In this document: one piece after another, positions 1-63,714 of the stretch
Position numbering within the stretch: the stretch's first letter is position 1
Layout: every line of letters starts with the position of its first letter
From: Streptomyces indicus
GTDB lineage: Bacteria; Actinomycetota; Actinomycetes; Streptomycetales; Streptomycetaceae
DNA: 64,000 bases
Direction: 5' to 3'
Assembly: GCF_900100315.1 (NCBI RefSeq)
Contig: NZ_FNFF01000011.1
Location: 124,001-188,000 of the forward strand
The notes under the pieces: model-generated
Told to the model about the DNA's origin: nothing
Database searches by the model: none
Seen by the model: the letters and a program-made list of their open reading frames with translations, nothing else
Program-made: the position numbers and the translations under genes

Positions 1-684
1 CTCGGTGGACCAGGTGCTCTCCACGAGCGCCCGCGCGGCTCCGGGATCATGCGCCCGTACGGCACCGAGCAGCGCGACCCGCTCGGCGAACAGGCCCTCC
101 TCCCACAGCCGTCCGACCGCCTCCGAGTCCTCGGGCGAGGGCAGGGCGCTGCCGCCGGGTGTGGTGCGCAGCGCGAACTTCCACTCCGGGTTGAGCCGCG
201 CCAGCCACAAAGCGCGGGGACCGGCGAAGGCCAGCGCGGGCGGACGCAGGTCGGTCCTGCCGCGCGCCGCGTCGAGCAGGGCGGGCAGCAGCTCGGCCGG
301 CGCGGCGTACCCGTGGTCGTTGGCCGCGGCCAGCCACTGCGGGAGCAGCTCCGTGAGGTCCGGTGTGCTGCCACGCCGGCCCGAACTCCCCGTCCCCGGA
401 CGGTCGGAGAGCAGCAGCGCGAGACGCCGGCGCGCGGCGGCCGGCAGTGCGGGGCGCGGATCGTCCTGCGCCCGCTCGGGGCGCGGGGCCGCGGAGCCCG
501 GCCGCAGCCCGGCCCGGCGCCGCACGGTGTGCAGCGCCGCCTCGTCGAGCAGCGCGGTGGCCGCGTCCTTGCGGCCGCGGACCGCCGCCCGGCCGATGCC
601 GCGCCGGTCCGTGCCGAGCAGCGCCGTGGTGACGAGCTCCTCCCAGCTCGCCGCCCCGGCCTGTGCGGTCTCCTGCCCGGTCAT
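1..684 (-). CDS. DUF5691 family protein (N-terminal part; runs off the left edge)
   Basis: Reading leftward from ATG at 684 (GGAGG-type ribosome site just upstream), the frame stays open for 228 codons to the window edge. The product begins MTGQETAQAGAASWEELVTT and is rich in Ala, Arg and Leu with no membrane segment. It matches DUF5691 proteins, which commonly sit beside SWIM-zinc-finger, MoxR and VWA genes in Streptomyces. It starts 76 bp after the SWIM gene ends, so the two probably share a transcript. Its function is unknown; I infer a role in the same AAA/VWA system. The family call rests on context and recalled sequence style, not a search. Confidence 0.7.
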   Translation of the reverse strand, partial: MTGQETAQAGAASWEELVTTALLGTDRRGIGRAAVRGRKDAATALLDEAALHTVRRRAGLRPGSAAPRPERAQDDPRPALPAAARRRLALLLSDRPGTGSSGRRGSTPDLTELLPQWLAAANDHGYAAPAELLPALLDAARGRTDLRPPALAFAGPRALWLARLNPEWKFALRTTPGGSALPSPEDSEAVGRLWEEGLFAERVALLGAVRAHDPGAARALVESTWSTE

Positions 685-760
685 CCGGCACCTCCCTCCG
701 TGACGTACGAACATCGTTGTGTGGCAAGCGGGTCGGGGCCGCGGCGCGGCCGGTGCGTCC

Positions 761-2101
761 TCAGCACAGCGGCACCGCACCCCCTCCGTCTCCCGCCCAC
801 ACGGTGAGCGGTGTGAACCCGCGGTGCCCGCACTCGCCGAACACCGTCACACCGCCGCCGCCCGAGACGGCCGCGAGCCGCCACAGACCGGGCCGCGACA
901 CGGGCACCACCGGCAGCGCCCCCGCCCCGTCCGCGTCGGCCAGCTGCATGCCGTCGCCGACCGGTGTCGGTATGACGTCGTGCAGCGTCACCGGCCAGGA
1001 CTCCAGCCACGGGTCCTCGCGCAGCGCCCTGCCGTACGCGGCCGCCGCCGCATGGGTGTCCACCCCCTGCGGGCGCAGGTCGGCGGGCACGGCCGGCGCG
1101 TGACGCTCGCCCAGCGCGTGCCGGTGCCCGCCGCCCGGGTACGCGGACAGCTCGGCGTCGAGCGACAGGCCGACGGGCAGGGCGAGTTCGGGTGCGCGGC
1201 CGGCCGCTCCGTAGGAGAGGAGCAGCGCCGTGCGCCCCGACTCCTGGCCCCGCAGCCAGATCCGGCGGGTGGTGAGCCGCGCGTCTGCCGTGTCGTACTG
1301 CGCGAGCACCAGCCACCGGTCGCGTATCGCGGGCCCTTCGGCGGAGGAGGACAGCCCGATCCGTGCCCGCACCGTCGCCGCCAGGGCGTCCGGCAGCCGC
1401 TCCCTGCGCAGCCAGGCCTGGTCGAGCAGGTGCAGCAGCGCGCACTCCTCCAGGAGCCGCACCGGCCAGCCCGCCCCCGACGCCGGTATCACCCCCAACT
1501 CCTGGACGCGCGCGGCCAGTCCGGGCGCCTGCGCGTCCACCATCCGGCGCGCGGTCTCCTCACCTAGCCCGTGCCCCGTCTGCTCCGCCGACGCGAGGCC
1601 GCCGCGCACCAGGTCGGCGAGGCGCTGCTCCAGCTCGGTCACCCCCGCGGTGACCCGCTCGGCCCGCCGCGCCGCGCGGCGCCGCGCGGCCTCCTCGTCA
1701 GCCGGCTTGCTCTCCCCTTTGTCCGGCGCCTCCTGCTGCTCCGCGCGTCTGCGCCGCCCCGCGAGCCACTGCTCCGCCCATTCCGGCGCCTCGGCGTCCG
1801 GGATCGCCTGCCCCGCCCCCTCGTCGCCCGCCCAGAGCAGCAGCAGCCCCAGCGCGTGCTTGCACGGGAACTTCCGGCTCGGGCAGCTGCACTTGTACGC
1901 GGGCCCCGCCGTGTCGACCACCGTCTGGTACGGCTTGCTGCCGCTGCCCTTGCACAGCCCCCATACGGCCCCCTCCTTCGAACTGCCCGCCTCGGACCAC
2001 GGACCCGCCGCCCCGAGCTTGCTTCCGGCTTTGCGCGACGCGGCGTCAGGCGCCAGTGCCAGCACCTGGTCGGCCGTCCAGCGCACCCCCTGCTGAGTCA
2101 T
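761..2101 (-). CDS. SWIM zinc-finger protein
   Basis: 446 aa, starting at ATG 2101 (MTQQGVRWTADQVLAL). A SWIM finger is plain at residues 71-82: C71, C73, C80 and H82 in CSCPSRKFPCKH. SWIM domains bind zinc and act in DNA or protein binding. The remaining about 350 residues are Ala/Arg/Glu-rich with no enzyme motif I recognise; a charged segment at roughly 120-165 is probably a linker. The gene is divergent from the MoxR operon and is followed by the DUF5691 gene. A PafBC/RecA-NDp-type promoter ends only a few bases upstream of the ATG, so the mRNA leader would be very short. The start is fixed by SWIM family N-termini; a longer upstream open frame has no support. Confidence 0.88.
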   Translation of the reverse strand: MTQQGVRWTADQVLALAPDAASRKAGSKLGAAGPWSEAGSSKEGAVWGLCKGSGSKPYQTVVDTAGPAYKCSCPSRKFPCKHALGLLLLWAGDEGAGQAIPDAEAPEWAEQWLAGRRRRAEQQEAPDKGESKPADEEAARRRAARRAERVTAGVTELEQRLADLVRGGLASAEQTGHGLGEETARRMVDAQAPGLAARVQELGVIPASGAGWPVRLLEECALLHLLDQAWLRRERLPDALAATVRARIGLSSSAEGPAIRDRWLVLAQYDTADARLTTRRIWLRGQESGRTALLLSYGAAGRAPELALPVGLSLDAELSAYPGGGHRHALGERHAPAVPADLRPQGVDTHAAAAAYGRALREDPWLESWPVTLHDVIPTPVGDGMQLADADGAGALPVVPVSRPGLWRLAAVSGGGGVTVFGECGHRGFTPLTVWAGDGGGAVPLC

Positions 2102-2108
2102 GTCTGCG

Positions 2109-2131
2109 AAGGTAGATCCCCCCACTGACAA
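2109..2131 (-). promoter_or_regulatory. RecA-NDp (PafBC-type) promoter of the SWIM gene
   Basis: On the minus strand the sequence is TTGTCAGTG, 8 nt, then TACCTT. This matches the actinobacterial LexA-independent DNA-damage promoter consensus TTGTCRGTG-N8-TANNNT exactly. The -10 hexamer lies 7 nt upstream of the SWIM ATG at 2101, so transcription would start at or beside the start codon. Confidence 0.7.
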
Positions 2132-2226
2132 TCGCCGCTGACCTGCGTATACGCGCGTGATGAAGCGGAGTTGGGGGCGGGCTGCGCGGTGGCCGGGAGA
2201 CGTGTGCGAGGCGTGCGCGCGGCCGA

Positions 2227-2249
2227 TTGTCAGTGGCGTGGTGCACCGT
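2227..2249 (+). promoter_or_regulatory. Near-consensus RecA-NDp box toward the MoxR operon
   Basis: A second perfect TTGTCAGTG lies on the plus strand at 2227-2235. At the required 8-nt spacing the next hexamer is CACCGT, which keeps A2 and T6 of TANNNT but not T1. It points at the MoxR gene, 61 bp downstream, and mirrors the perfect leftward site. It is probably a weaker damage-type promoter or a PafBC contact site. Confidence 0.5.
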
Positions 2250-2309: not shown

Positions 2310-3434
2310 ATGACCGTGCTCGACAACGGGGCGCAGCAGGCGTCCGCGGACACCGCCGAGGTGCTGCGGCCGCACGCGGAGGACGCGTTCGCGGACGAGC
2401 TCGCCGCGCTCGCCGCCGCCGACGACCGTCCGCGCCCCGCGCGCTGGCGCCTGTCGCCGTGGGCGGTGGCCACGTATCTGCTGGGCGGCACGCTGCCCGA
2501 CGGCACCGTGATCACACCGAAGTACGTGGGGCCGCGCCGCATCGTCGAGGTGGCCGTGACCACCTTGGCCACCGACCGGGCGCTGCTCCTGCTCGGGGTG
2601 CCGGGCACCGCGAAGACCTGGGTGTCCGAGCATCTCGCGGCGGCCGTCAGCGGGGACTCGACGCTGCTCGTGCAGGGCACGGCGGGCACACCGGAGGAGG
2701 CCATCCGCTACGGGTGGAACTATGCGCAGCTGCTCGCCCACGGCCCGAGCCGCGACGCCCTCGTGCCCAGCCCCGTGATGCGCGCGATGTCCGAGGGCAT
2801 GACCGCCCGCGTCGAGGAGCTCACGCGCATCCCCGCGGACGTGCAGGACACGCTCATCACGATCCTGTCGGAGAAGACCCTGCCCATACCGGAGTTGGGC
2901 CAGGAGGTGCAGGCGGTCCGCGGGTTCAACCTGATCGCGACGGCCAATGACCGCGACCGCGGGGTCAATGACCTGTCCAGCGCCCTGCGCCGCCGCTTCA
3001 ACACGGTGGTGCTCCCGCTGCCCGAGAGCGTCGACGCCGAGGTGGACATCGTGGCGCGGCGCGTGGACCAGCTGGGCCGCTCGCTCGACCTGCCGCAGGG
3101 ACTCGACGGGATCGCCGAGATCCGCCGGGTCGTCACCGTCTTCCGCGAGCTGCGCGACGGCATCACCGCCGACGGCCGTACGAAGGTGAAGTCCCCGAGC
3201 GGCACGCTCTCCACGGCCGAGGCGATCTCCGTCGTCACCAACGGACTCGCCCTTGCCACGCACTTCGGCGACGGCGTGCTGCGCCCCGGAGACGTGGCGG
3301 CGGGCATCCTCGGCGCGGTCGTCCGCGACCCGGCCTCGGACCGTGTGATCTGGAAGGAGTACCTGGAGGCCGTGGTGCGCGAGCGCGACGGCTGGAAGGA
3401 CTTCTACCGGGCCTGCCGCGAGGTGAGCGGGTGA
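2310..3434 (+). CDS. MoxR-family AAA+ ATPase
   Basis: 374 aa from ATG 2310, preceded by GGAGGGGG. Walker A is GVPGTAKT at residues 96-103; further on are the sensor-like segment FNLIATANDRDRGVN and the arginine-finger region LRRRFNTVVLPLPE. MoxR proteins are chaperone-like ATPases that work with VWA-domain partners to remodel or mature protein complexes; the VWA partner is two genes downstream. The next gene starts 65 bp on, so this is the first gene of a three-gene operon (MoxR - DUF5682 - VWA). A longer in-frame extension to 2157 has no ribosome site and poor family fit. Confidence 0.93.
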   Translation: MTVLDNGAQQASADTAEVLRPHAEDAFADELAALAAADDRPRPARWRLSPWAVATYLLGGTLPDGTVITPKYVGPRRIVEVAVTTLATDRALLLLGVPGTAKTWVSEHLAAAVSGDSTLLVQGTAGTPEEAIRYGWNYAQLLAHGPSRDALVPSPVMRAMSEGMTARVEELTRIPADVQDTLITILSEKTLPIPELGQEVQAVRGFNLIATANDRDRGVNDLSSALRRRFNTVVLPLPESVDAEVDIVARRVDQLGRSLDLPQGLDGIAEIRRVVTVFRELRDGITADGRTKVKSPSGTLSTAEAISVVTNGLALATHFGDGVLRPGDVAAGILGAVVRDPASDRVIWKEYLEAVVRERDGWKDFYRACREVSG

Positions 3435-3499: not shown

Positions 3500-5956
3500 A
3501 TGAACGGGGAGCCGGTGAACTCCGGTGCCGTGGAAGGGCCCTGGCTGCTCGGGGTGCGTCACCACGGGCCCGGGTCGGCGCGCGCGGTGCGGGCGGCGCT
3601 CGACGAGCGGCGGCCGCGGGCCGTCCTGATCGAAGGGCCGCCGGAGGCGGACGGCCTGGTGGGGCTGGCCGCCGACGAGGGGATGCGGCCGCCCGTCGCG
3701 CTGCTCGCGCACGTCGTGGACGATCCGGGGTGCTCGGCGTTCTGGCCGTTCGCGGAGTTCTCGCCGGAGTGGGTGGCGATCACGTGGGCGCTGGAGCACG
3801 GGGTCCCGGTGCGGTTCATCGACCTGCCGGCGGCGCATGCGCTGGCGATGCGGGCGGGGGAGAAGGAGGCGGCGACAGAAGGGCCGGAGGCCGAGCGAGG
3901 TGAGCCCGAGGCCGGTGCACTTGAGGGCGGTGCCCGCGAGTCCGGCGCACCCGTGTCGGACGAGCCCGAGTCCGGCGGACCCGGGGCCGTCGACGGGCTG
4001 CGGCTCGACCCGATCGCCGTGCTCGCCGAGACCGCCGGATACGACGATCCCGAGCGCTGGTGGGAGGACGTCGTCGAGTACCGGGGGCAGCCCGCGGCGG
4101 GCGGTGACGCGCTGGCCCCGTTCGCCGCGCTCGCCGAGGCGATGGGCGCGCTGCGCGAGGTGTACGGCACGGGCGGCCACGACCGCGACCTCGTCCGCGA
4201 GGCGTACATGCGGCTCCAAATGCGCGCCGCGGCCAAGGAGTTCGGTCCGGATGTCGCCGTCGTGTGCGGCGCGTGGCACGTCCCCGCGCTGCGGGAGCGG
4301 ACCACCCTCACCGCCGACCGCGCCCTGCTCAAGGGCCTGCCCAAGGCCAAGGTCGACATGACCTGGGTGCCCTGGACCCACCGCCGCCTGGCACGGGCGA
4401 GCGGTTACGGCGCGGGCATCGACTCACCGGGCTGGTACGCGCATCTCTTCGCCGCCCCGGACCGCCCGGTGGAGCGCTGGCTGACCAAGGTCGCGGGCCT
4501 GCTGCGCGACGAGGACCGCTTCGTGTCCTCGGCCCACGTCATCGAGGCCGTACGGCTCGCCGAGTCCCTCGCCGTCATGCGCGGCCGCCCGCTGCCCGGC
4601 CTCTCCGAGACCACGGACGCGGTCCGCGCCGTGCTCTGCGACGGCTCCGACGTGCCGCTCGCGCTCATCCACGACCGCCTCATCGTCGGCGACGTGCTCG
4701 GCGAGGTCCCCGAGGCCGCCCCCGCCGTCCCGCTCCAGCGCGACCTCACCCGGACCCAGAAGTCGCTGCGGCTCAAACCGGAAGCCCTGGAGCGGGAGTT
4801 GGAGCTCGACCTGCGCGGGGCCAACGACGCCGCGCGCAGCCGCCTGCTGCACCGCCTGCGGCTGCTCGGCATCGGCTGGGGCGAGCCCGCGGCCGCGACG
4901 CGCGGCAGCACGGGCACGTTCAGGGAGAGCTGGCGGCTGCGCTGGGAGCCCGAACTGGCGGTGCGGGTGGCCGAGGCCGGCATCTGGGGCACGACGGTGC
5001 TCGGCGCCGCCACCGCGAAGGCCGAGGCGAACGCCGTGGGCGCGGCGGCACTCGCCGACATCACGGCACTCGCCGAGCGCTGCCTGCTCGCCGGACTCTC
5101 CGACGCCCTGCCGGTCGTGATGCGCGTCCTCGCCGACCGCGCGGCCCTCGACGCCGACGTCGGCCATCTCGCCCAGGCACTGCCCGCGTTGGTGCGCTCG
5201 CTCCGCTACGGGGACGTGCGCGGCACCGACACCGCCGCGCTCGCCGAGGTGGCGGCCGGTCTCGCCGAGCGGGTCTTCGTCGGCCTCGCCCCGGCCTGCG
5301 CGGGCCTCGACGCGGACGGCGCGGCGGAGATGCGCACCCACGTGGACGCGGTGCACGGCGCGGTCGGCCTGCTCGACGACGCGGAGGCCCGTACCTCCGA
5401 GGGCATACGTCCCCGGTGGTTCACCGTGCTGCACGCCCTCGGCACCCGCGACACGGTGCCCGGGGTGATCCGCGGCCGGGCGGTGCGACTGCTGCTCGAC
5501 GAAGGTGAGTTGAGCCAGGAGGAGGCAGGCCGGCTCATGGGGCTCGCGCTCTCGGCCGGAACCCCTCCGGCCGACGCGGCCGCGTGGATCGACGGGTTCG
5601 TCGGCGGCGGGTCCGGCGGCATGCTCCTCGTCCACGACGAGCGGCTGCTCGGCCTCGTGGACGCCTGGCTCGTCTCGGTGCCCGACGCGGCGTTCACCGA
5701 TGTGCTGCCGCTGCTGCGGCGCACGTTCTCGGCGTACGAACCGGGCGTACGCCGCACCCTCGGCGAACTGGTCCGGCGCGGTCCCGCCGCAGAGTCGGCC
5801 GCGAAGGTGACGGCCGGCGTGCCCGGCTTCGCGGACGACCTGGACGAGGAGCGCGCGAGGGCCGCTCTGCCGGTGGTGCGCCTGCTCCTCGGCCTGGACG
5901 CGCCCCCGGCCACCACCCCCGACAGCACCAACGACCTTGCGGAGGTTGCCGGATGA
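3500..5956 (+). CDS. DUF5682 family protein
   Basis: 818 aa from ATG 3500 (GGAGG at 3491-3495; an in-frame TTG directly before it is too close to the ribosome site). The N-terminal region carries HHGPGSAR (residues 21-28), IEGPPEAD (about 44-51) and, later, VCGAWHVPAL with His260. This His / Glu / G-x-x-H layout resembles the TraB/TIKI and EreA/ChaN type of putative hydrolase, but that is inference. An acidic Glu/Gly/Pro insert sits at about 120-170. The C-terminal half is Ala/Leu-rich and helical. The gene lies between the MoxR and VWA genes and overlaps the latter by ATGA, implying a stoichiometric partner in a MoxR-VWA complex. No biochemical function is known to me. Confidence 0.85.
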   Translation: MNGEPVNSGAVEGPWLLGVRHHGPGSARAVRAALDERRPRAVLIEGPPEADGLVGLAADEGMRPPVALLAHVVDDPGCSAFWPFAEFSPEWVAITWALEHGVPVRFIDLPAAHALAMRAGEKEAATEGPEAERGEPEAGALEGGARESGAPVSDEPESGGPGAVDGLRLDPIAVLAETAGYDDPERWWEDVVEYRGQPAAGGDALAPFAALAEAMGALREVYGTGGHDRDLVREAYMRLQMRAAAKEFGPDVAVVCGAWHVPALRERTTLTADRALLKGLPKAKVDMTWVPWTHRRLARASGYGAGIDSPGWYAHLFAAPDRPVERWLTKVAGLLRDEDRFVSSAHVIEAVRLAESLAVMRGRPLPGLSETTDAVRAVLCDGSDVPLALIHDRLIVGDVLGEVPEAAPAVPLQRDLTRTQKSLRLKPEALERELELDLRGANDAARSRLLHRLRLLGIGWGEPAAATRGSTGTFRESWRLRWEPELAVRVAEAGIWGTTVLGAATAKAEANAVGAAALADITALAERCLLAGLSDALPVVMRVLADRAALDADVGHLAQALPALVRSLRYGDVRGTDTAALAEVAAGLAERVFVGLAPACAGLDADGAAEMRTHVDAVHGAVGLLDDAEARTSEGIRPRWFTVLHALGTRDTVPGVIRGRAVRLLLDEGELSQEEAGRLMGLALSAGTPPADAAAWIDGFVGGGSGGMLLVHDERLLGLVDAWLVSVPDAAFTDVLPLLRRTFSAYEPGVRRTLGELVRRGPAAESAAKVTAGVPGFADDLDEERARAALPVVRLLLGLDAPPATTPDSTNDLAEVAG

Positions 5957-7134
5957 CCACCCACACCCCGCCGGCATCGGCCGGCGCCGAGCGTCTGCGC
6001 CGCTGGCGCATGGTGCTCGGCGGCCAGGAGGCCGACGGCACCGAGTACCGGCTCGGCGGACGCGACGCCGCGATGGACTCCGCGCTCGAATCGCTCTACG
6101 GCAAGCGGGGCGGGAACGGCGGCGCGGGCAGGGACCGTTCCGCCGGGCTCGGCGCCTCCGCGCCGGCCGTGGCGCGCTGGCTCGGCGACATCCGTACGTA
6201 CTTCCCGTCCTCCGTGGTCCAGGTGATGCAGCGCGACGCCATCGACCGCCTCGGCCTGTCCGCGCTCCTGCTCGAACCGGAGATGCTCGAGGCCATCGAG
6301 CCGGACGTGCATCTGGTCGGCACGCTGCTCTCGCTCAACAAGGCGATGCCCGAGACCACCAAGGAGACCGCACGGGCCGTGGTGCGCAAGGTCGTCGAGG
6401 ACCTGGAGAAGCGGCTGGCCACGCGCACCCGTGCCACCCTCACCGGCGCCCTCGACCGCAGCGCGCGGATCAGCCGGCCCCGCCACCATGACATCGACTG
6501 GAACCGCACGATCGCGGCCAACCTCAAGCACTACCTGCCCGAGCACCGGACGGTCGTGCCCGAGCGGCTGATCGGCTACGGACGGGCCGCGCAGTCCGTG
6601 AAGAAGGACGTCGTGCTCTGCATCGACCAGTCCGGGTCGATGGCGGCCTCCGTCGTCTACGCCTCGGTGTTCGGCGCGGTCCTCGCCTCGATGCGCTCGA
6701 TCAGCACCCGTCTCGTCGTCTTCGACACGGCCGTGGTCGACCTCACCGACCAGCTCGACGACCCGGTGGACGTGCTGTTCGGCACGCAGCTCGGCGGCGG
6801 CACGGACATCAACCGCGCCCTCGCCTACTGCCAGTCGCAGATCACCCGCCCCGCGGACACCGTCGTCGTGCTCATCTCGGACCTCTACGAGGGCGGCATC
6901 CGCAACGAGATGCTGAAGCGGGTCGCGGCGATGAAGGCCTCCGGAGTGCAGTTCGTGACGCTGCTCGCGCTCTCCGACGAGGGCGCGCCGGCGTACGACC
7001 GCGAGCATGCGGCGGCCCTCGCGAACCTGGGCGCGCCGGCCTTCGCCTGCACGCCCGACCTGTTCCCCGAAGTGATGGCCGCCGCGATCGAGAAGCGGCC
7101 ACTGCCCATACCGGACAAGGAGACCCATCAGTAA
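5953..7134 (+). CDS. VWA-domain protein, MoxR partner
   Basis: 393 aa, ATG overlapping the DUF5682 stop (ATGA). The N-terminal ~200 residues are helical and charged. A VWA domain follows with the MIDAS motif DQSGSM at 225-230, a later GGGTDI threonine site and the aspartate segment LISDLYEGG, so metal binding looks intact. VWA proteins of this kind dock substrates or adaptors onto MoxR hexamers. As the last gene of the operon it is translationally coupled to DUF5682. No signal peptide is visible, so it should be cytoplasmic. Confidence 0.92.
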   Translation: MTTHTPPASAGAERLRRWRMVLGGQEADGTEYRLGGRDAAMDSALESLYGKRGGNGGAGRDRSAGLGASAPAVARWLGDIRTYFPSSVVQVMQRDAIDRLGLSALLLEPEMLEAIEPDVHLVGTLLSLNKAMPETTKETARAVVRKVVEDLEKRLATRTRATLTGALDRSARISRPRHHDIDWNRTIAANLKHYLPEHRTVVPERLIGYGRAAQSVKKDVVLCIDQSGSMAASVVYASVFGAVLASMRSISTRLVVFDTAVVDLTDQLDDPVDVLFGTQLGGGTDINRALAYCQSQITRPADTVVVLISDLYEGGIRNEMLKRVAAMKASGVQFVTLLALSDEGAPAYDREHAAALANLGAPAFACTPDLFPEVMAAAIEKRPLPIPDKETHQ

Positions 7135-7292
7135 CAGGGGGCTTGCGCGACCCCAGTTGTCGCGTGCGAGGATCGGCGGGCGCGCCGGACTGAGCGATTC
7201 CGCCCCCACGAGCCTCACCCGGCAGGCGCACCGGCCCACCCGGCCGGTGCCGCACGCGGGTGCCCCACAGAACCCCACGCCATGGAGCCCTG

Positions 7293-8468
7293 TTGACCTT
7301 CGCAGCCACGCTGCCCCTCGCCGTCCGGCGCGCCCTGCGCCCGACGGCGGTGCGGCGCGCGCTGCAACTGGCGCTGCTGCTCGGCGCGTTCCTCGTGCTC
7401 GGCCTGCTGTGCGGCGAGCGGGCGCAGGCGGCCGAGGACCCCACGGCACCGGTACGGGACCAGCTCACGGCCCCTGTACGTGAGGCGACCCAGCCGGGCG
7501 GCCAAGCCGTTCAGCCTGTACGGGAAGCGGTCGAGCCGGTCCGCGAGGCCGCCGAGTCTGTCCGCGAGGCCACCGAGCCGGTCGGCCAAGCAGCCGAACC
7601 GGTCCGCCAAGCTGCCGAGCCCATACGCGAAGCAGCCGAACCTGTCCGCGAGGCCGCTGAGCCCGTCCGCCAAGCCACCGCGCCCGCCCGCCAAGCCGTC
7701 GAACCGGTAAGGGGCGTCACGGCGCCCGTTCGCCAGGGTGTCGCGGCGTCCGCCCGGGATGCCGCAATGCCCGTTCAGGAAGCCGCAGCGCCCGCCCGGG
7801 ATGCCGCAGCACCCGCCCGGGATGCCGCAGCACCCGTCCGCAAAGCCACCGCACCCGTCCTCAAGACCGTCACCCCCGTCCACGAGTCCCTCGGCCCAGT
7901 CCGCGAAGCCGTCGACTCCCTCCGGGAGCCGATAGAGCGGTCCGTGCGGCAGGTGACGCAGCCCCTGCGGGCGACCACGGCCGCGGCGGTCGAGACCGTC
8001 ACCGGGCTGCTCCGGCCCGTCCCGCTGCCGCAACCGGCGCTGCCGTACGTGCCCTTGCCCGTGGGGGACCGCGGCGCCGACCCGGCGGCGCAGCAGCCGT
8101 CGCCCGGTTCCGGCGCGGATTCCGCGCTGCCCGGCGATCCCCGTACGGACTCCGCAGAACACACGCACGCCACCGTCCCGGCAGCGGCATGGCAGTCAGC
8201 CGTCTCCGCACCGGAGGCGCACCCCACCGCCCAACTCCCGCACCCCACCGCCCCGTCGGGCCCCGCGCACCTCCCCGTGCCCGGCGGCCCGCAGGGACTC
8301 GGGGCGCACAGCACCGCCGAGTCCGGCTCGCAGCGCCACGGCGATCTGCAGGGCGCGACGCTCACCGACGGTTACGCCGCCGCGCCGCTGTCCGGCGGCC
8401 CGAGCGCCTCCACCTCGTACGACGGAGTCCGCGAGCGCCACCGCGACGTCCTCGAATTCCCCGGCTAG
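7293..8468 (+). CDS. Secreted heptad-repeat Pro/Val/Arg-rich protein
   Basis: 391 aa from TTG 7293 (GGAG 5 nt upstream); a GTG at 7260 is an alternative start without a ribosome site. An Arg-rich n-region and hydrophobic stretch (LALLLGAFLVLGLLCG) ending near ERAQA-AED look like a signal peptide. Residues about 50-200 are built from a 7-residue unit close to AEPVREA, encoded by 21-bp DNA repeats; the C-terminal half is Pro/Ser/His-rich and disordered. No family is recognised. The export signal and regular repeat suggest a surface or matrix protein. It precedes another secreted low-complexity protein by 119 bp in the same direction. Confidence 0.72.
   Translation: MTFAATLPLAVRRALRPTAVRRALQLALLLGAFLVLGLLCGERAQAAEDPTAPVRDQLTAPVREATQPGGQAVQPVREAVEPVREAAESVREATEPVGQAAEPVRQAAEPIREAAEPVREAAEPVRQATAPARQAVEPVRGVTAPVRQGVAASARDAAMPVQEAAAPARDAAAPARDAAAPVRKATAPVLKTVTPVHESLGPVREAVDSLREPIERSVRQVTQPLRATTAAAVETVTGLLRPVPLPQPALPYVPLPVGDRGADPAAQQPSPGSGADSALPGDPRTDSAEHTHATVPAAAWQSAVSAPEAHPTAQLPHPTAPSGPAHLPVPGGPQGLGAHSTAESGSQRHGDLQGATLTDGYAAAPLSGGPSASTSYDGVRERHRDVLEFPG
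7505..7860 (+). repeat. 21-bp coding tandem repeats
   Basis: Degenerate 21-bp units encode successive AEPVREA-like heptads; near-identical copies around 7780-7840 encode AAPARDA. The array would expand and contract in whole heptads without breaking the frame. Confidence 0.75.
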
Positions 8469-8587
8469 GGCAGGCCCTTCCCCCCGCCTGACGACCTGCC
8501 GCGCGGGGGCGGGACAGGTCTGCCCGCCGCGAAGGGAGCCGTGAACGGCCCCTTCGTACCCTCGAATTCGAAGGATCCGAAGCAGTA

Positions 8588-9736
8588 ATGAGCAAGCACA
8601 AGAAGCAGAGCACGCCGTCCGTGAGCGGACGGAACATCCGGCGCAACATCGTCATAACCGCCGCCGGCGCCACCGGCATGATCGGTCTGGGTGCCGCCAA
8701 CGCCGGCGCCGCCGAGCTGCCGGTCTCCGCGCCCGTCAGCACGCCGGACGTGGACGTCGCCACCGACGCGCTCGACCAGGTCCGCGACCAGGTGCGCGAC
8801 AAGGCCTCCGGCGTCGGTGCCGAGGAGGCGCTGGGCAAGGCGAAGGGTTCCGCGGCCGGTGCCAAGGCGAAGGCCGAGTCGGCCGTGCGCGGCGCCGAGG
8901 GCCTCGGCGACCTCCAGGGTCTCCAGGGCGCCGCCGACCAGGCCAAGGGCCAGGCCGACCGGCTCCCGGCGGGCCAGCTCCCGACCGCGGAGCTGCCGGC
9001 CGCAGACCTCCCGGCCGCGGACCTCCCCGCCAACGGCCTCCCGGACGCCCAGCTGCCCACCGGCCTCCCCGCGGCCGAGCTGCCCTCCGGCCTCGCGAAC
9101 GCGCAGCTCCCGGCCTCCCTGCCGGACGGTCTGCCCGCCGCCCAACTCCCCGCCCCCGAGGGCGAGATCGACTACCTCTTCGGCCCGCTCTCCGCCTTCG
9201 CCCCGGCCGTCGTCGAGCAGGCCCCCGGCGTGCTCGAGCAGGCCCCGGCCCACGCGCAGGGCGCCCTGGCCGCCGCGAACCCGGTCGTCGCCGAGACCAC
9301 CGCGGCCGTGCTGCCGCCGGTCGCCGCGACCGCCGTCGAGTCGGTGCTCCCCGTCGTCGGCCAGGCGCTCGCCGACGCGGGCACGCTGGTGCAGGGCGTG
9401 GGCGGGGACGTCACGCCGTTCGCGCAGGGGGTCACCGACGAGGTGCGGCCCTTCGCGGGCGGCGTCGTCGAGGACGTGAAGCCGGTGGCCGACGTGGTGG
9501 TCTCCGAGGTGCAGCCCCTGGTCCAGGACGTCGGCACGGCCGCGACCGGCCTCGCCACCGGCGTCGGCGGCGAGGCGGACGGTCTGGTGCGCGGTGTCAC
9601 CGCCGAGGTCGGCCCGTTCGCCGAGGACCTCACGGGCACGGTCCGCGCGGACGCGGGCCCGCTCGTGCAGAACGCCGCTTCCGGCGTGCAGGCCACGGCC
9701 TCCGCGGTGACCCCCGGGTTCGCGGCCGGCATCTGA
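8588..9736 (+). CDS. Secreted Ala/Leu/Pro-repeat protein
   Basis: 382 aa from ATG 8588. The start MSKHKKQSTPSVSGRN is followed by a hydrophobic stretch (IVITAAGATGMIGLGAANAG) and a likely cleavage near AGAAEL, so it is probably exported. Residues about 40-110 are Lys/Ala/Glu helices with DQVRDQVRDKAS periodicity. Residues about 120-190 are a run of LPxAxLP-type units; the C-terminal half alternates Val/Ala/Gly with acidic residues. No domain is recognised. With its upstream neighbour it forms a pair of secreted repeat proteins of unknown role, possibly cell-surface or aerial-growth associated (inference). Confidence 0.75.
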   Translation: MSKHKKQSTPSVSGRNIRRNIVITAAGATGMIGLGAANAGAAELPVSAPVSTPDVDVATDALDQVRDQVRDKASGVGAEEALGKAKGSAAGAKAKAESAVRGAEGLGDLQGLQGAADQAKGQADRLPAGQLPTAELPAADLPAADLPANGLPDAQLPTGLPAAELPSGLANAQLPASLPDGLPAAQLPAPEGEIDYLFGPLSAFAPAVVEQAPGVLEQAPAHAQGALAAANPVVAETTAAVLPPVAATAVESVLPVVGQALADAGTLVQGVGGDVTPFAQGVTDEVRPFAGGVVEDVKPVADVVVSEVQPLVQDVGTAATGLATGVGGEADGLVRGVTAEVGPFAEDLTGTVRADAGPLVQNAASGVQATASAVTPGFAAGI

Positions 9737-12462: not shown

Positions 12463-12537
12463 CCCGTTGTCAGTGGCGGCCGATAGTCTTGCGGGGCTGG
12501 CGCGGCCCCCGGGCGGGAGGGGACTGTCCGGGTAACC
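12463..12537 (+). repeat. ~75-bp element carrying a RecA-NDp consensus (copy A)
   Basis: TTGTCAGTG (12467-12475), 8 nt, TAGTCT (12484-12489) matches the PafBC-type promoter consensus exactly. The same box plus about 50 bp of downstream sequence (CGATAG, then CGGCCCCCGGG, then GGGAGGGG or similar, then GTCCGGG) recurs at 62803-62876 with few differences. Here it points rightward into the 3' end of the leftward HTH/sigma-like gene, with no plus-strand gene after it. It is either an antisense damage promoter or a dispersed element. Confidence 0.6.
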
Positions 12538-12542
12538 GGGCT

Positions 12543-14975
<2,433 letters not shown>

Positions 14976-47699: not shown

Positions 47700-47958
47700 C
47701 GCTGCGCCTCTCCCTTGAACGAGATTTCGAAAGATATGGACGCCCACACCGTATGCGGCAGCGGTGACAACCAGGGTCCGCTGCGGAGGCAGCCCCTTTC
47801 CTTCCCTGCCGATCACCGCGAACTCGGACAGCCCGCCTGAGTGCCGGGCCCTGGGTATCAGGGCGGCTGAGACGCGTGCCCCCGACCTGGAGCAAGATCA
47901 TCGGTTGCTCGCATCGCGGACGAGGAAACCTCGCCCGGACACCTGCCGGTAAGGTGAC
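47700..47958. other. Upstream part of the VOC-glyA intergenic region
   Basis: About 260 bp of divergent promoter region. No gene or consensus promoter is clear. It is followed by the ZTP riboswitch and the glyA leader. Confidence 0.4.
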
Positions 47959-48040
47959 GAGTGGGCCGTGACTGGCGCGCTGAGATGGGATCAACCATCG
48001 GGGAGCGGCTCATGAACTGTGTGCCGTGCGCCTGGGCCGA
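47959..48040 (+). promoter_or_regulatory. ZTP (pfl) riboswitch upstream of glyA
   Basis: Conserved blocks in order: GCCGTGACTGGCGC (47965-47978), a P2 hairpin GATGG-GATCAA-CCATC (47984-47999), CGGGGAGCGG (48000-48009), and CCGTGCGCCTGGGC (48024-48037). P1 pairs GGCGC with GCGCC, and the terminal CGCCTGGGC is the diagnostic pseudoknot block. The element ends about 50 bp before the glyA start. ZTP riboswitches bind ZMP/ZTP, which builds up when 10-formyl-THF is short, and turn on one-carbon genes such as glyA. Confidence 0.88.
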
Positions 48041-48091
48041 ACCGAGTACGACGAACCTGTACGCATCGTCTTCGTCCGGAGGTCCACCACC

Positions 48092-62316: not shown

Positions 62317-63714
62317 GTGATCGTCCTCTTCGTCCTCGCGGGTCTCGCCGCCTTCTCCGCCCTGCTCGGGCTGCACTACTACCTGTGGCGCCGGCTCGTA
62401 CGCGACACGACCACGCCGCGGTCGGCGGGACGCAAGGCCGGGACGGCCGTGATCGTCACGGCGCTGGTGCTGATGGTGGGCGCGTTCGCGGGGGCGCGGG
62501 CCGGGCTGCCGTTCGGACTCCAGCAGGTGCTCGCCTGGCCCGGCTACCTGTGGATGGCGCTGTTCCTCTACCTGACGCTGTGGCTGCTGGCCGGCGAGGT
62601 GGTGCGGCCGCTGCTGCTGCGGTGGCTGCGGAAGCGGGATGCGGCGGCTGCGGGGGAGGGGGTGCCGTCGGTCGGGGAGCCGGCTGCGGTGGATCCTGCG
62701 CCGGCCGCGGTGGCCGCAGGCGGTTCCGGGGCTCAGGACGCAGGCGGCCAAGCGGCCCAGGAGGCACGCGGCCAAGCGGCCCAGGACGCAGGCGGCCAGG
62801 GGCCGTTGTCAGTGGGCGGCGATAGGGTTGAAGAGGGCTCGGCCCCCGGGAGGGAGGGGTCCGTCCGGGGTACCCCTGAGCGCCCCCACCCCTCCCGCCG
62901 CCTCTTCGTCTCCCGCATCGTCGGCGGAGCCGCGGCCGCCGCCGCGGTCGGGACCGTCGGGTTCGGTACGTACAACGTGCTGCGCGGACCGAAGCTCAAG
63001 CACATCACCGTGCCGCTCGCGAAGCTGCCGCGCGCCGCGCACGGCTTCCGTATCGCCGTCGTCAGCGACATCCACCTCGGACCGATCCTGGGCCGCGCGC
63101 ACACGCAGCGCATCGTCGACACCATCAACTCCACGCAGGCCGACCTGGTCGCCGTCGTCGGCGACCTCGTCGACGGCAGCGTCGAGGACCTCGGCCCCGC
63201 CGCCGAACCGCTCGCGCAGCTCCGCTCGCGCCACGGCTCGTACTTCGTCACCGGCAACCACGAGTACTTCTCGGGCGCCGCGCAGTGGGTGGACCACGTA
63301 CGCGAACTCGGCCTGCACCCGCTGGAGAACGCCCGCGTCGAGATCGACGGCTTCGACCTTGCGGGCGTGAATGACGTGGCCGGCGAGAGCGAGGGCCAGG
63401 GCCCCGACTTCGTGAAGGCGCTCGGCGACCGCGACCGCTCGCGCGCCTCGGTCCTCCTCGCGCACCAGCCCGTGGTCATCCACGACGCGGTCGAACACGG
63501 AGTGGACCTCCAGCTTTCCGGCCACACCCACGGTGGCCAGATGTGGCCGGGCAATCTCATCGCCGACCTCGCCAACCCCACCCTCGCCGGCCTGGAACGC
63601 TACGGCGACACGCAGCTGTTCGTGTCGCGCGGCGCCGGGGCGTGGGGGCCGCCGGTGCGGGTCGGGGCCCCGTCGGACATCACCGTGGTGACGCTCGCCT
63701 CCCGGCAGGCGTGA
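62317..63714 (+). CDS. Metallophosphoesterase with membrane-spanning N-terminus
   Basis: 465 aa from GTG 62317. Three membrane helices at about 1-95 (FVLAGLAAFSALLGLHYYLW; VIVTALVLMVGAFAG; YLWMALFLYLTLWLLAGEVV), then a ~90-residue Gly/Ala/Gln linker and a fourth hydrophobic stretch with an Arg pair (RRLFVSRIVGGAAAAAAVGT). Calcineurin-like motifs: VSDIHLGPI, VGDLVDG, GNHEYFSG, HQPV, SGHTHGGQMWP, so all five metal-ligand blocks are present. The linker contains 24-bp repeats and a 75-bp element with a damage-promoter box. Substrate unknown; likely outside or at the membrane. Confidence 0.88.
   Translation: MIVLFVLAGLAAFSALLGLHYYLWRRLVRDTTTPRSAGRKAGTAVIVTALVLMVGAFAGARAGLPFGLQQVLAWPGYLWMALFLYLTLWLLAGEVVRPLLLRWLRKRDAAAAGEGVPSVGEPAAVDPAPAAVAAGGSGAQDAGGQAAQEARGQAAQDAGGQGPLSVGGDRVEEGSAPGREGSVRGTPERPHPSRRLFVSRIVGGAAAAAAVGTVGFGTYNVLRGPKLKHITVPLAKLPRAAHGFRIAVVSDIHLGPILGRAHTQRIVDTINSTQADLVAVVGDLVDGSVEDLGPAAEPLAQLRSRHGSYFVTGNHEYFSGAAQWVDHVRELGLHPLENARVEIDGFDLAGVNDVAGESEGQGPDFVKALGDRDRSRASVLLAHQPVVIHDAVEHGVDLQLSGHTHGGQMWPGNLIADLANPTLAGLERYGDTQLFVSRGAGAWGPPVRVGAPSDITVVTLASRQA
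62731..62798 (+). repeat. 24-bp tandem repeats in the phosphoesterase linker
   Basis: Two full copies of a 24-bp unit (62744-62767, 62768-62791) flanked by partial copies encode GQAAQ-type octads, keeping the reading frame. Confidence 0.85.
62803..62876 (+). repeat. ~75-bp element carrying a RecA-NDp consensus (copy B, inside a gene)
   Basis: TTGTCAGTG (62806-62814), 8 nt, TAGGGT (62823-62828) matches the PafBC-type consensus exactly. The sequence stays similar to the copy at 12463-12537 through the C-rich and GGGAGGG blocks. Here it is read through in frame as part of the phosphoesterase linker and could start a shorter mRNA for the catalytic domain. Confidence 0.6.

Follow-up and report, generated by a model that had tools for sequence, protein, structure and literature searches.

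Candidate divergent DNA damage promoters of the PafBC class at a Yeh-type MoxR–DUF5682–VWA gene cluster of Streptomyces

Genes and promoter boxes of the cluster

We analyzed a 64-kb stretch of Streptomyces indicus DNA (the window) that carries two divergent gene arms, i.e., SWIM–DUF5691 on one side and MoxR–DUF5682–VWA on the other, with two divergent promoter boxes between them (Table 1). Pfam matches bear out the gene assignments of a preliminary description of this DNA (SWIM, DUF5691, MoxR, DUF5682 and VWA). The DUF5691 frame is complete at L009:5068-6780 and encodes 570 aa. The VWA gene is followed by two predicted secreted proteins and then by sucC/sucD. The secreted proteins (7260-9736) are consecutive, rich in short repeats and had no Pfam match. 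A known defence system was rejected as a reading of the cluster, because none of six proteins searched matched a PADLOC anti-phage model at E ≤ 0.01. Also rejected was a MoxR-vWA-β-propeller ternary conflict system, given that the bpMoxR profile scored 23.3 bits, below its cut-off of 27. Elsewhere in the window, a ZMP/ZTP riboswitch (RF01750, 55 bits) was found at 47958-48044 on the plus strand.

Table 1. Cluster genes, predicted promoters and motif-bearing repeat copies in the window
Feature	Position	Strand	Remarks
DUF5691 protein, runs past the window edge	1..780	-	Pfam E 6.9e-176
446-aa SWIM zinc-finger protein, resembling YehQ in domain and context	761..2101	-	Pfam SWIM E 1.2e-5
Predicted leftward promoter, recA-type/PafBC-type	2109..2131	-	TTGTCAGTG-N8-TACCTT
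Predicted rightward promoter, same class	2227..2249	+	TTGTCAGTG-N8-CACCGT, GTGCA immediately before/at the -10
MoxR-type AAA+ ATPase, 374 aa, YehL-related	2310..3434	+	AAA_5 E 3.6e-37
DUF5682 protein, 813 aa, YehM-related	3515..5956	+	Pfam E 2.3e-299
VWA (CoxE-like) protein, 393 aa, YehP-related	5953..7134	+	VWA_CoxE E 2.7e-62
Not part of the cluster: perfect motif in a copy of a dispersed G-rich repeat, flanked by convergent genes	12467..12489	+	
Not part of the cluster: second copy of the same repeat	62806..62828	+	

Spelled out, the leftward box is TTGTCAGTG-GGGGGATC-TACCTT and the rightward box TTGTCAGTG-GCGTGGTG-CACCGT. Both contain the perfect TTGTCRGTG element that marks membership of the RecA-NDp/PafBC class. 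The left box has both the N8 spacer and TANNNT; the right box has N8 but CANNNT, a single base off TANNNT. We hence read the boxes as they had been described before, with a perfect leftward motif, a perfect rightward -35-like box followed by a one-base-off -10, and a leftward -10 almost at the start codon. The ATG of the SWIM gene (2101) lies 7 nt past the end of the leftward -10, and from this offset the SWIM mRNA is predicted to be probably leaderless. Three motif matches were found in the window versus 0.00 expected from shuffled sequence, and the 8.2-Mb genome contained 52 perfect matches versus 0 for the reversed pattern.

Conservation of the boxes and the genome-wide promoter class

Orthologous clusters, where the preliminary description had placed the test of its own reading, have kept the boxes. 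In a genus sample of 23 genomes the right box was present in 23 and the left box in 19. The right box was found at all 80 named Streptomyces loci, as perfect TTGTCAGTG in 79 and in a one-mismatch form in the last, and its -10 was CANNNT at every one of them. The left box occurred at 78 of these 80 loci (69 perfect), always with TANNNT as -10, and the distance from this -10 to the SWIM start was 7 nt at 61 of the 77 measured Streptomyces loci and 6 nt at 6 more. Across the named Streptomyces loci, mean identity of aligned columns was 91% inside the boxes compared with 66% between them, and the box-to-box distance varied among the 23 genus genomes. The two boxes hence look like independent promoters and not like a single shared operator.

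Since CANNNT is found in every Streptomyces right box, the apparent defect of this -10 is a conserved feature, and we rejected a decaying promoter as an explanation for it. The fixed C suggests a weak basal promoter that is more reliant on an activator. It also bears on the earlier proposal that both arms fire together: the arms may be co-induced, yet not equally. The GTGCA of the right box is invariant in Streptomyces and in family f3. It is present at the -10 in 5 of 20 genomic CANNNT sites (window 2238-2249 and sites C13, C15, C20 and C43) and may serve as an alternative extended -10, or else reflect an operator that overlaps the box.

In the further families covered (f3, f6, f17, f18 and f24) the genes are mostly collinear, in the order SWIM–DUF5691–MoxR–DUF5682–VWA. 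A box whose -10 ends 6–8 nt before the SWIM start was nevertheless present at 15 of 17 scorable loci, at a threshold of at least 9 of 12 positions that 1.6% of background start codons reach. Among these 17 loci, a good box before SWIM was not found at L132 (f24) and L133 (f6). In family f18 the -10 before SWIM is CANNNT, and family f3 also has a right-type box, TTGTCAGTGGCGTGGTG-CACAAT, before DUF5691. As the box stands at the same 7-nt offset before SWIM despite the other gene order, the promoters, judged by sequence, have outlasted rearrangement of the cluster.

The perfect genomic matches are a mixed set. About 23 of these 52 belong to a dispersed G-rich repeat, so we rejected the view that all 52 are promoters. 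The repeat is about 55 nt long with the consensus TTGTCAGTGGnnnnCGATAGnCTggaaaggGGCTCGGCCCCCGGGcGGGAGGGGactgtc, had no Rfam match and is present in 23 genome copies (L010, L013, L016, L018, L020, L023 and others), mostly antisense to genes or between convergent genes; the window copies extend over 12467-12545 and 62806-62880. Because it holds a perfect damage-promoter motif, it contaminates motif scans. That so many perfect matches belong to this TTGTCAGTGG-GATAG repeat could suggest that the cluster boxes are themselves repeat copies and not promoters. However, neither the GATAG nor the G-rich 3' half of the repeat is found in them, and the place of both boxes is conserved across species and families, so the sequence itself refutes this origin, to which we assign a negligible probability.

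Downstream of perfect sites in the same genome are recA, rpsF, uracil-DNA glycosylase, ogt, a WGR protein and a helicase with a UvrB-like start. CANNNT sites precede genes for a DinB-type polymerase, HolB, a gyrase/topoisomerase IV A subunit (gyrA/parC-type), a DEAD helicase and an NAD-dependent ligase. From its occurrence on dinB, holB and other such genes, CANNNT is an ordinary variant of the promoter class in this genome. With repeat copies set aside, 49 sites with TANNNT or CANNNT remained, of which 27 had an ATG or GTG 6–8 nt after the -10, compared with 1 of the 20 repeat copies tallied. This spacing suggests leaderless transcripts at such sites.

The promoter class itself has been described. 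The UV-inducible recA promoter of S. rimosus reads TTGTCAGTGGC-N6-TAGggT, and related motifs were reported on 67 S. coelicolor genes, many of them for DNA repair (PMC2375139); the SIGffRid gene list in that paper's supplement may already include the SCO4803 promoter. RecA-NDp is similar to the PafBC motif and is not confined to mycobacteria (PMC8223512). The cluster promoters share with the RecA-NDp/recA P1 class, which is PafBC-controlled in mycobacteria (TTGTCRGTG-N8-TANNNT), the -35-like box, the 8-nt spacer and, on the left arm, TANNNT. They differ from it in that CANNNT is fixed on the right arm, that the targets are uncharacterised AAA+ genes and that PafBC control is presumed for Streptomyces. 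We conclude with high confidence that both boxes are genuine promoters of this LexA-independent actinobacterial DNA damage class. An initial search in S. venezuelae had found the M. smegmatis motif not conserved (PMC9380542); for the genus at large, the cluster data contradict this statement. Very probably, Streptomyces has a PafBC-type regulon that uses a -10 of (T/C)ANNNT, often with leaderless starts, and whose detection is confounded by a dispersed repeat.

Relation to the E. coli Yeh set and the DUF5682 fold

BLAST related three cluster proteins to E. coli, i.e., MoxR to YehL (39%, E 3e-75), DUF5682 to YehM (27%, E 7e-38) and VWA to YehP (38%, E 2e-74). The SWIM protein had no BLAST similarity to YehQ, though a SWIM domain is common to both. 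In E. coli K-12 the order is yehL–yehM–yehP–yehQ, so that the homologous MoxR, DUF5682 and VWA genes occur in the same order and a SWIM protein belongs to both sets. In contrast, the actinobacterial set adds DUF5691, which was not found in the E. coli yeh locus, and its SWIM gene is divergent or first in the operon. From homology and gene order we assign the cluster as the actinobacterial form of the E. coli YehL–YehM–YehP(–YehQ) set plus DUF5691. The range of DUF5682 takes in E. coli, actinobacteria and Deinobacterium.

The yehF (WGR family) and yehI (DUF4132) genes lie just upstream of the E. coli set. WGR-DUF4132 is unlinked and rare in Streptomyces, where YehI-like genes were found in 4 of 61 genomes and at L168, but it has the same promoter class there: a perfect 12/12 box lies close upstream in 5 of 5 examined cases (L168:2939, L272-L275). 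The Streptomyces protein is 34% identical to YehI (E 4e-88). In the S. indicus genome, a perfect box lies 61 nt ahead of the gene for a WGR and β-propeller-like protein (L157:3861-5393, site C44). Perfect boxes also occur upstream of other MoxR-VWA or distant DUF5682 groups in Streptomyces (L164:2994, L169:4549). Paralogous MoxR-VWA operons, with MoxR about 45% identical, have a perfect box upstream in some cases and lack it in others. RavA-ViaA, NorQ-NorD and other MoxR-VWA pairs likewise combine a MoxR AAA+ ATPase with a VWA partner. The cluster differs from RavA-ViaA and NorQ-NorD in having no link to LdcI, fumarate reductase or nitric oxide reductase, and adds DUF5682, DUF5691 and SWIM proteins as well as damage-type promoters.

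The AlphaFold2 model of DUF5682 (mean pLDDT 75) shows an α/β N-domain (about 290 residues) followed by a helical solenoid at the C-terminus. Across 16 orthologues, residues G13-x-x-H16, E40 and G252-x-x-H255 do not vary, and E. coli YehM also has both GX2H motifs and the Glu. A pair of GX2H motifs with a catalytic Glu is the arrangement of the TIKI/TraB superfamily. Members of this family have been described as potential metalloproteases (PMC12329661). Likeness to TIKI/TraB/ChaN (EreA-like) proteins extends to the order of secondary structure and to a TraB family protein at Foldseek rank 2 (probability 1.00 but E 0.03); moreover, residues 3-267 aligned with 7w5z_E at Z 9.3. However, the ChaN/Tiki Pfam match appeared in one orthologue only and stayed below the cut-off (E 0.056, 13.9 bits versus 27.7), DUF5682 is fused to a helical solenoid, and it has no membrane anchor. 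The TraB profile had no match in 60 actinobacterial genomes. As the family profile cut-off was missed, we do not claim membership of the superfamily and describe the N-domain as TIKI/TraB-like, a putative metallohydrolase. DUF5691 (AlphaFold2 model, pLDDT 82; Foldseek matches to ARM/HEAT proteins, E > 1e-3) is predicted to be an ARM/HEAT-like solenoid; for DUF5691 and the DUF5682 C-terminus, ARM/HEAT matches were generic and none had E ≤ 1e-3.

In S. coelicolor, SCO4803, SCO4804 and SCO4805 correspond to MoxR, DUF5682 and VWA, a match that rests on gene order, length and neighbours rather than on sequence. By this match they are the same three genes upstream of sucCD (sucC is SCO4808), SCO4804 has 815 aa compared with 813–819 aa for DUF5682, and the neighbouring secreted protein also agrees. 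SCO4804 has been treated as a regulator of topA transcription in a study that makes no mention of MoxR, VWA, DUF5682 or the promoters (PMC8120823). The set had been called previously undescribed, which has to be qualified, because it is the actinobacterial form of E. coli YehLMP(Q) and SCO4804 was already linked to topA/gyrase expression. Our literature search found no mention of DUF5682 and no assigned function for the Yeh-type MoxR/DUF5682/VWA set; YehL, SWIM and DUF5682 are not mentioned in PMC7159879.

Candidate regulators and proposed function

The preliminary description had placed the promoters in the LexA-independent, PafBC-type class, and this assignment agrees with the retention of the boxes in orthologous clusters, their presence on recA and repair genes, the pafB and pafC genes encoded in the genome and the missing LexA box. 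It also agrees with published RNA-seq in which the S. coelicolor counterpart, as matched by synteny, is induced in the same condition (TopA depletion) as recA and dinP. pafB and pafC are adjacent (L137; WYL/WCX and HTH_PafC proteins). PafC is encoded in 25 of 25 cluster genomes tested, which counts weakly for a PafBC link since PafC is likely to be widespread in the class. We infer that PafBC is likely to drive the cluster promoters.

Other regulators have to be weighed against it. For LexA, it could be held that recA, with the same box as the cluster, also has a one-mismatch SOS-like site. In the cluster intergenic region, however, the sequence test found no GAACN4GTTC box within one mismatch; the best match there had 2 mismatches, and 67 of 68 Streptomyces segments had at least 2. 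LexA/SOS control was hence rejected on sequence and we regard it as very unlikely. A damage promoter of this type could also answer to an alternative sigma factor, to ClgR, for which recognition of the mycobacterial P1 region is cited (PMC5656591), or to another WYL activator, and several further PafC-HTH-like proteins are indeed encoded in the genome. Against this, pafB/pafC orthologues are present, the motif is identical to that of PafBC, and the biochemical results from mycobacteria are specific for PafBC (PMC11804915), so that a different regulator appears quite improbable.

The boxes might instead answer topology and not damage, with the cluster primarily regulating topoisomerase genes in response to supercoiling, a role put forward for SCO4804. 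In S. coelicolor, sco4804 and its neighbours are induced about 8-fold on TopA depletion, disruption of sco4804 by Tn5 reduces both the activity of the topA promoter and the level of TopA, and overexpression of sco4804 raises topA and gyrB transcripts (PMC8120823). A gyrA/parC-type gene of S. indicus also has a CANNNT box. Yet TopA depletion induces recA, dinP, dnaE2 and lexA as well (PMC6637917), the boxes are common to recA and repair genes, and MoxR–VWA–DUF5682 is not a transcription factor architecture. We consider this explanation unlikely.

On the whole we favor, as probable, the reading that PafBC-class damage promoters drive a Yeh-type remodelling set. PafBC is activated by ssDNA (PMC11804915). 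Upon accumulation of ssDNA, PafBC would let RNA polymerase-σA start at both boxes, giving a probably leaderless SWIM–DUF5691 transcript on the left and a MoxR–DUF5682–VWA transcript on the right. The AAA+ MoxR ring and its VWA partner would then act on a client, whose recognition or processing may fall to DUF5682, with its TIKI/TraB-like putative metallohydrolase domain and solenoid, to the DUF5691 solenoid and to the SWIM zinc finger. The most likely clients would be DNA-associated protein complexes exposed by damage or topological stress. Complex formation, hydrolase activity and client are what we infer for these proteins, and a remodelling or hydrolase function of the cluster is put forward tentatively. 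More doubtful is the specific proposal that PafBC induces a machine of MoxR-VWA, TIKI-like DUF5682, DUF5691 and SWIM (and WGR-DUF4132 where present) whose task is to clear or repair protein complexes where DNA is damaged or under topological stress, with E. coli YehLMPQ/YehI as its orphan counterpart.

A conserved damage promoter that was kept through a change of gene order would provide a physiological context for the widespread Yeh-type MoxR/DUF5682/VWA set. It bears on the point left open in PMC9380542, i.e., a PafBC-type regulon in Streptomyces. The link between SCO4804 and topA may be re-read as a damage or ssDNA response rather than as direct topA regulation. An orphan Yeh-type machine would thus be tied to the DNA damage response by two strongly conserved promoters.
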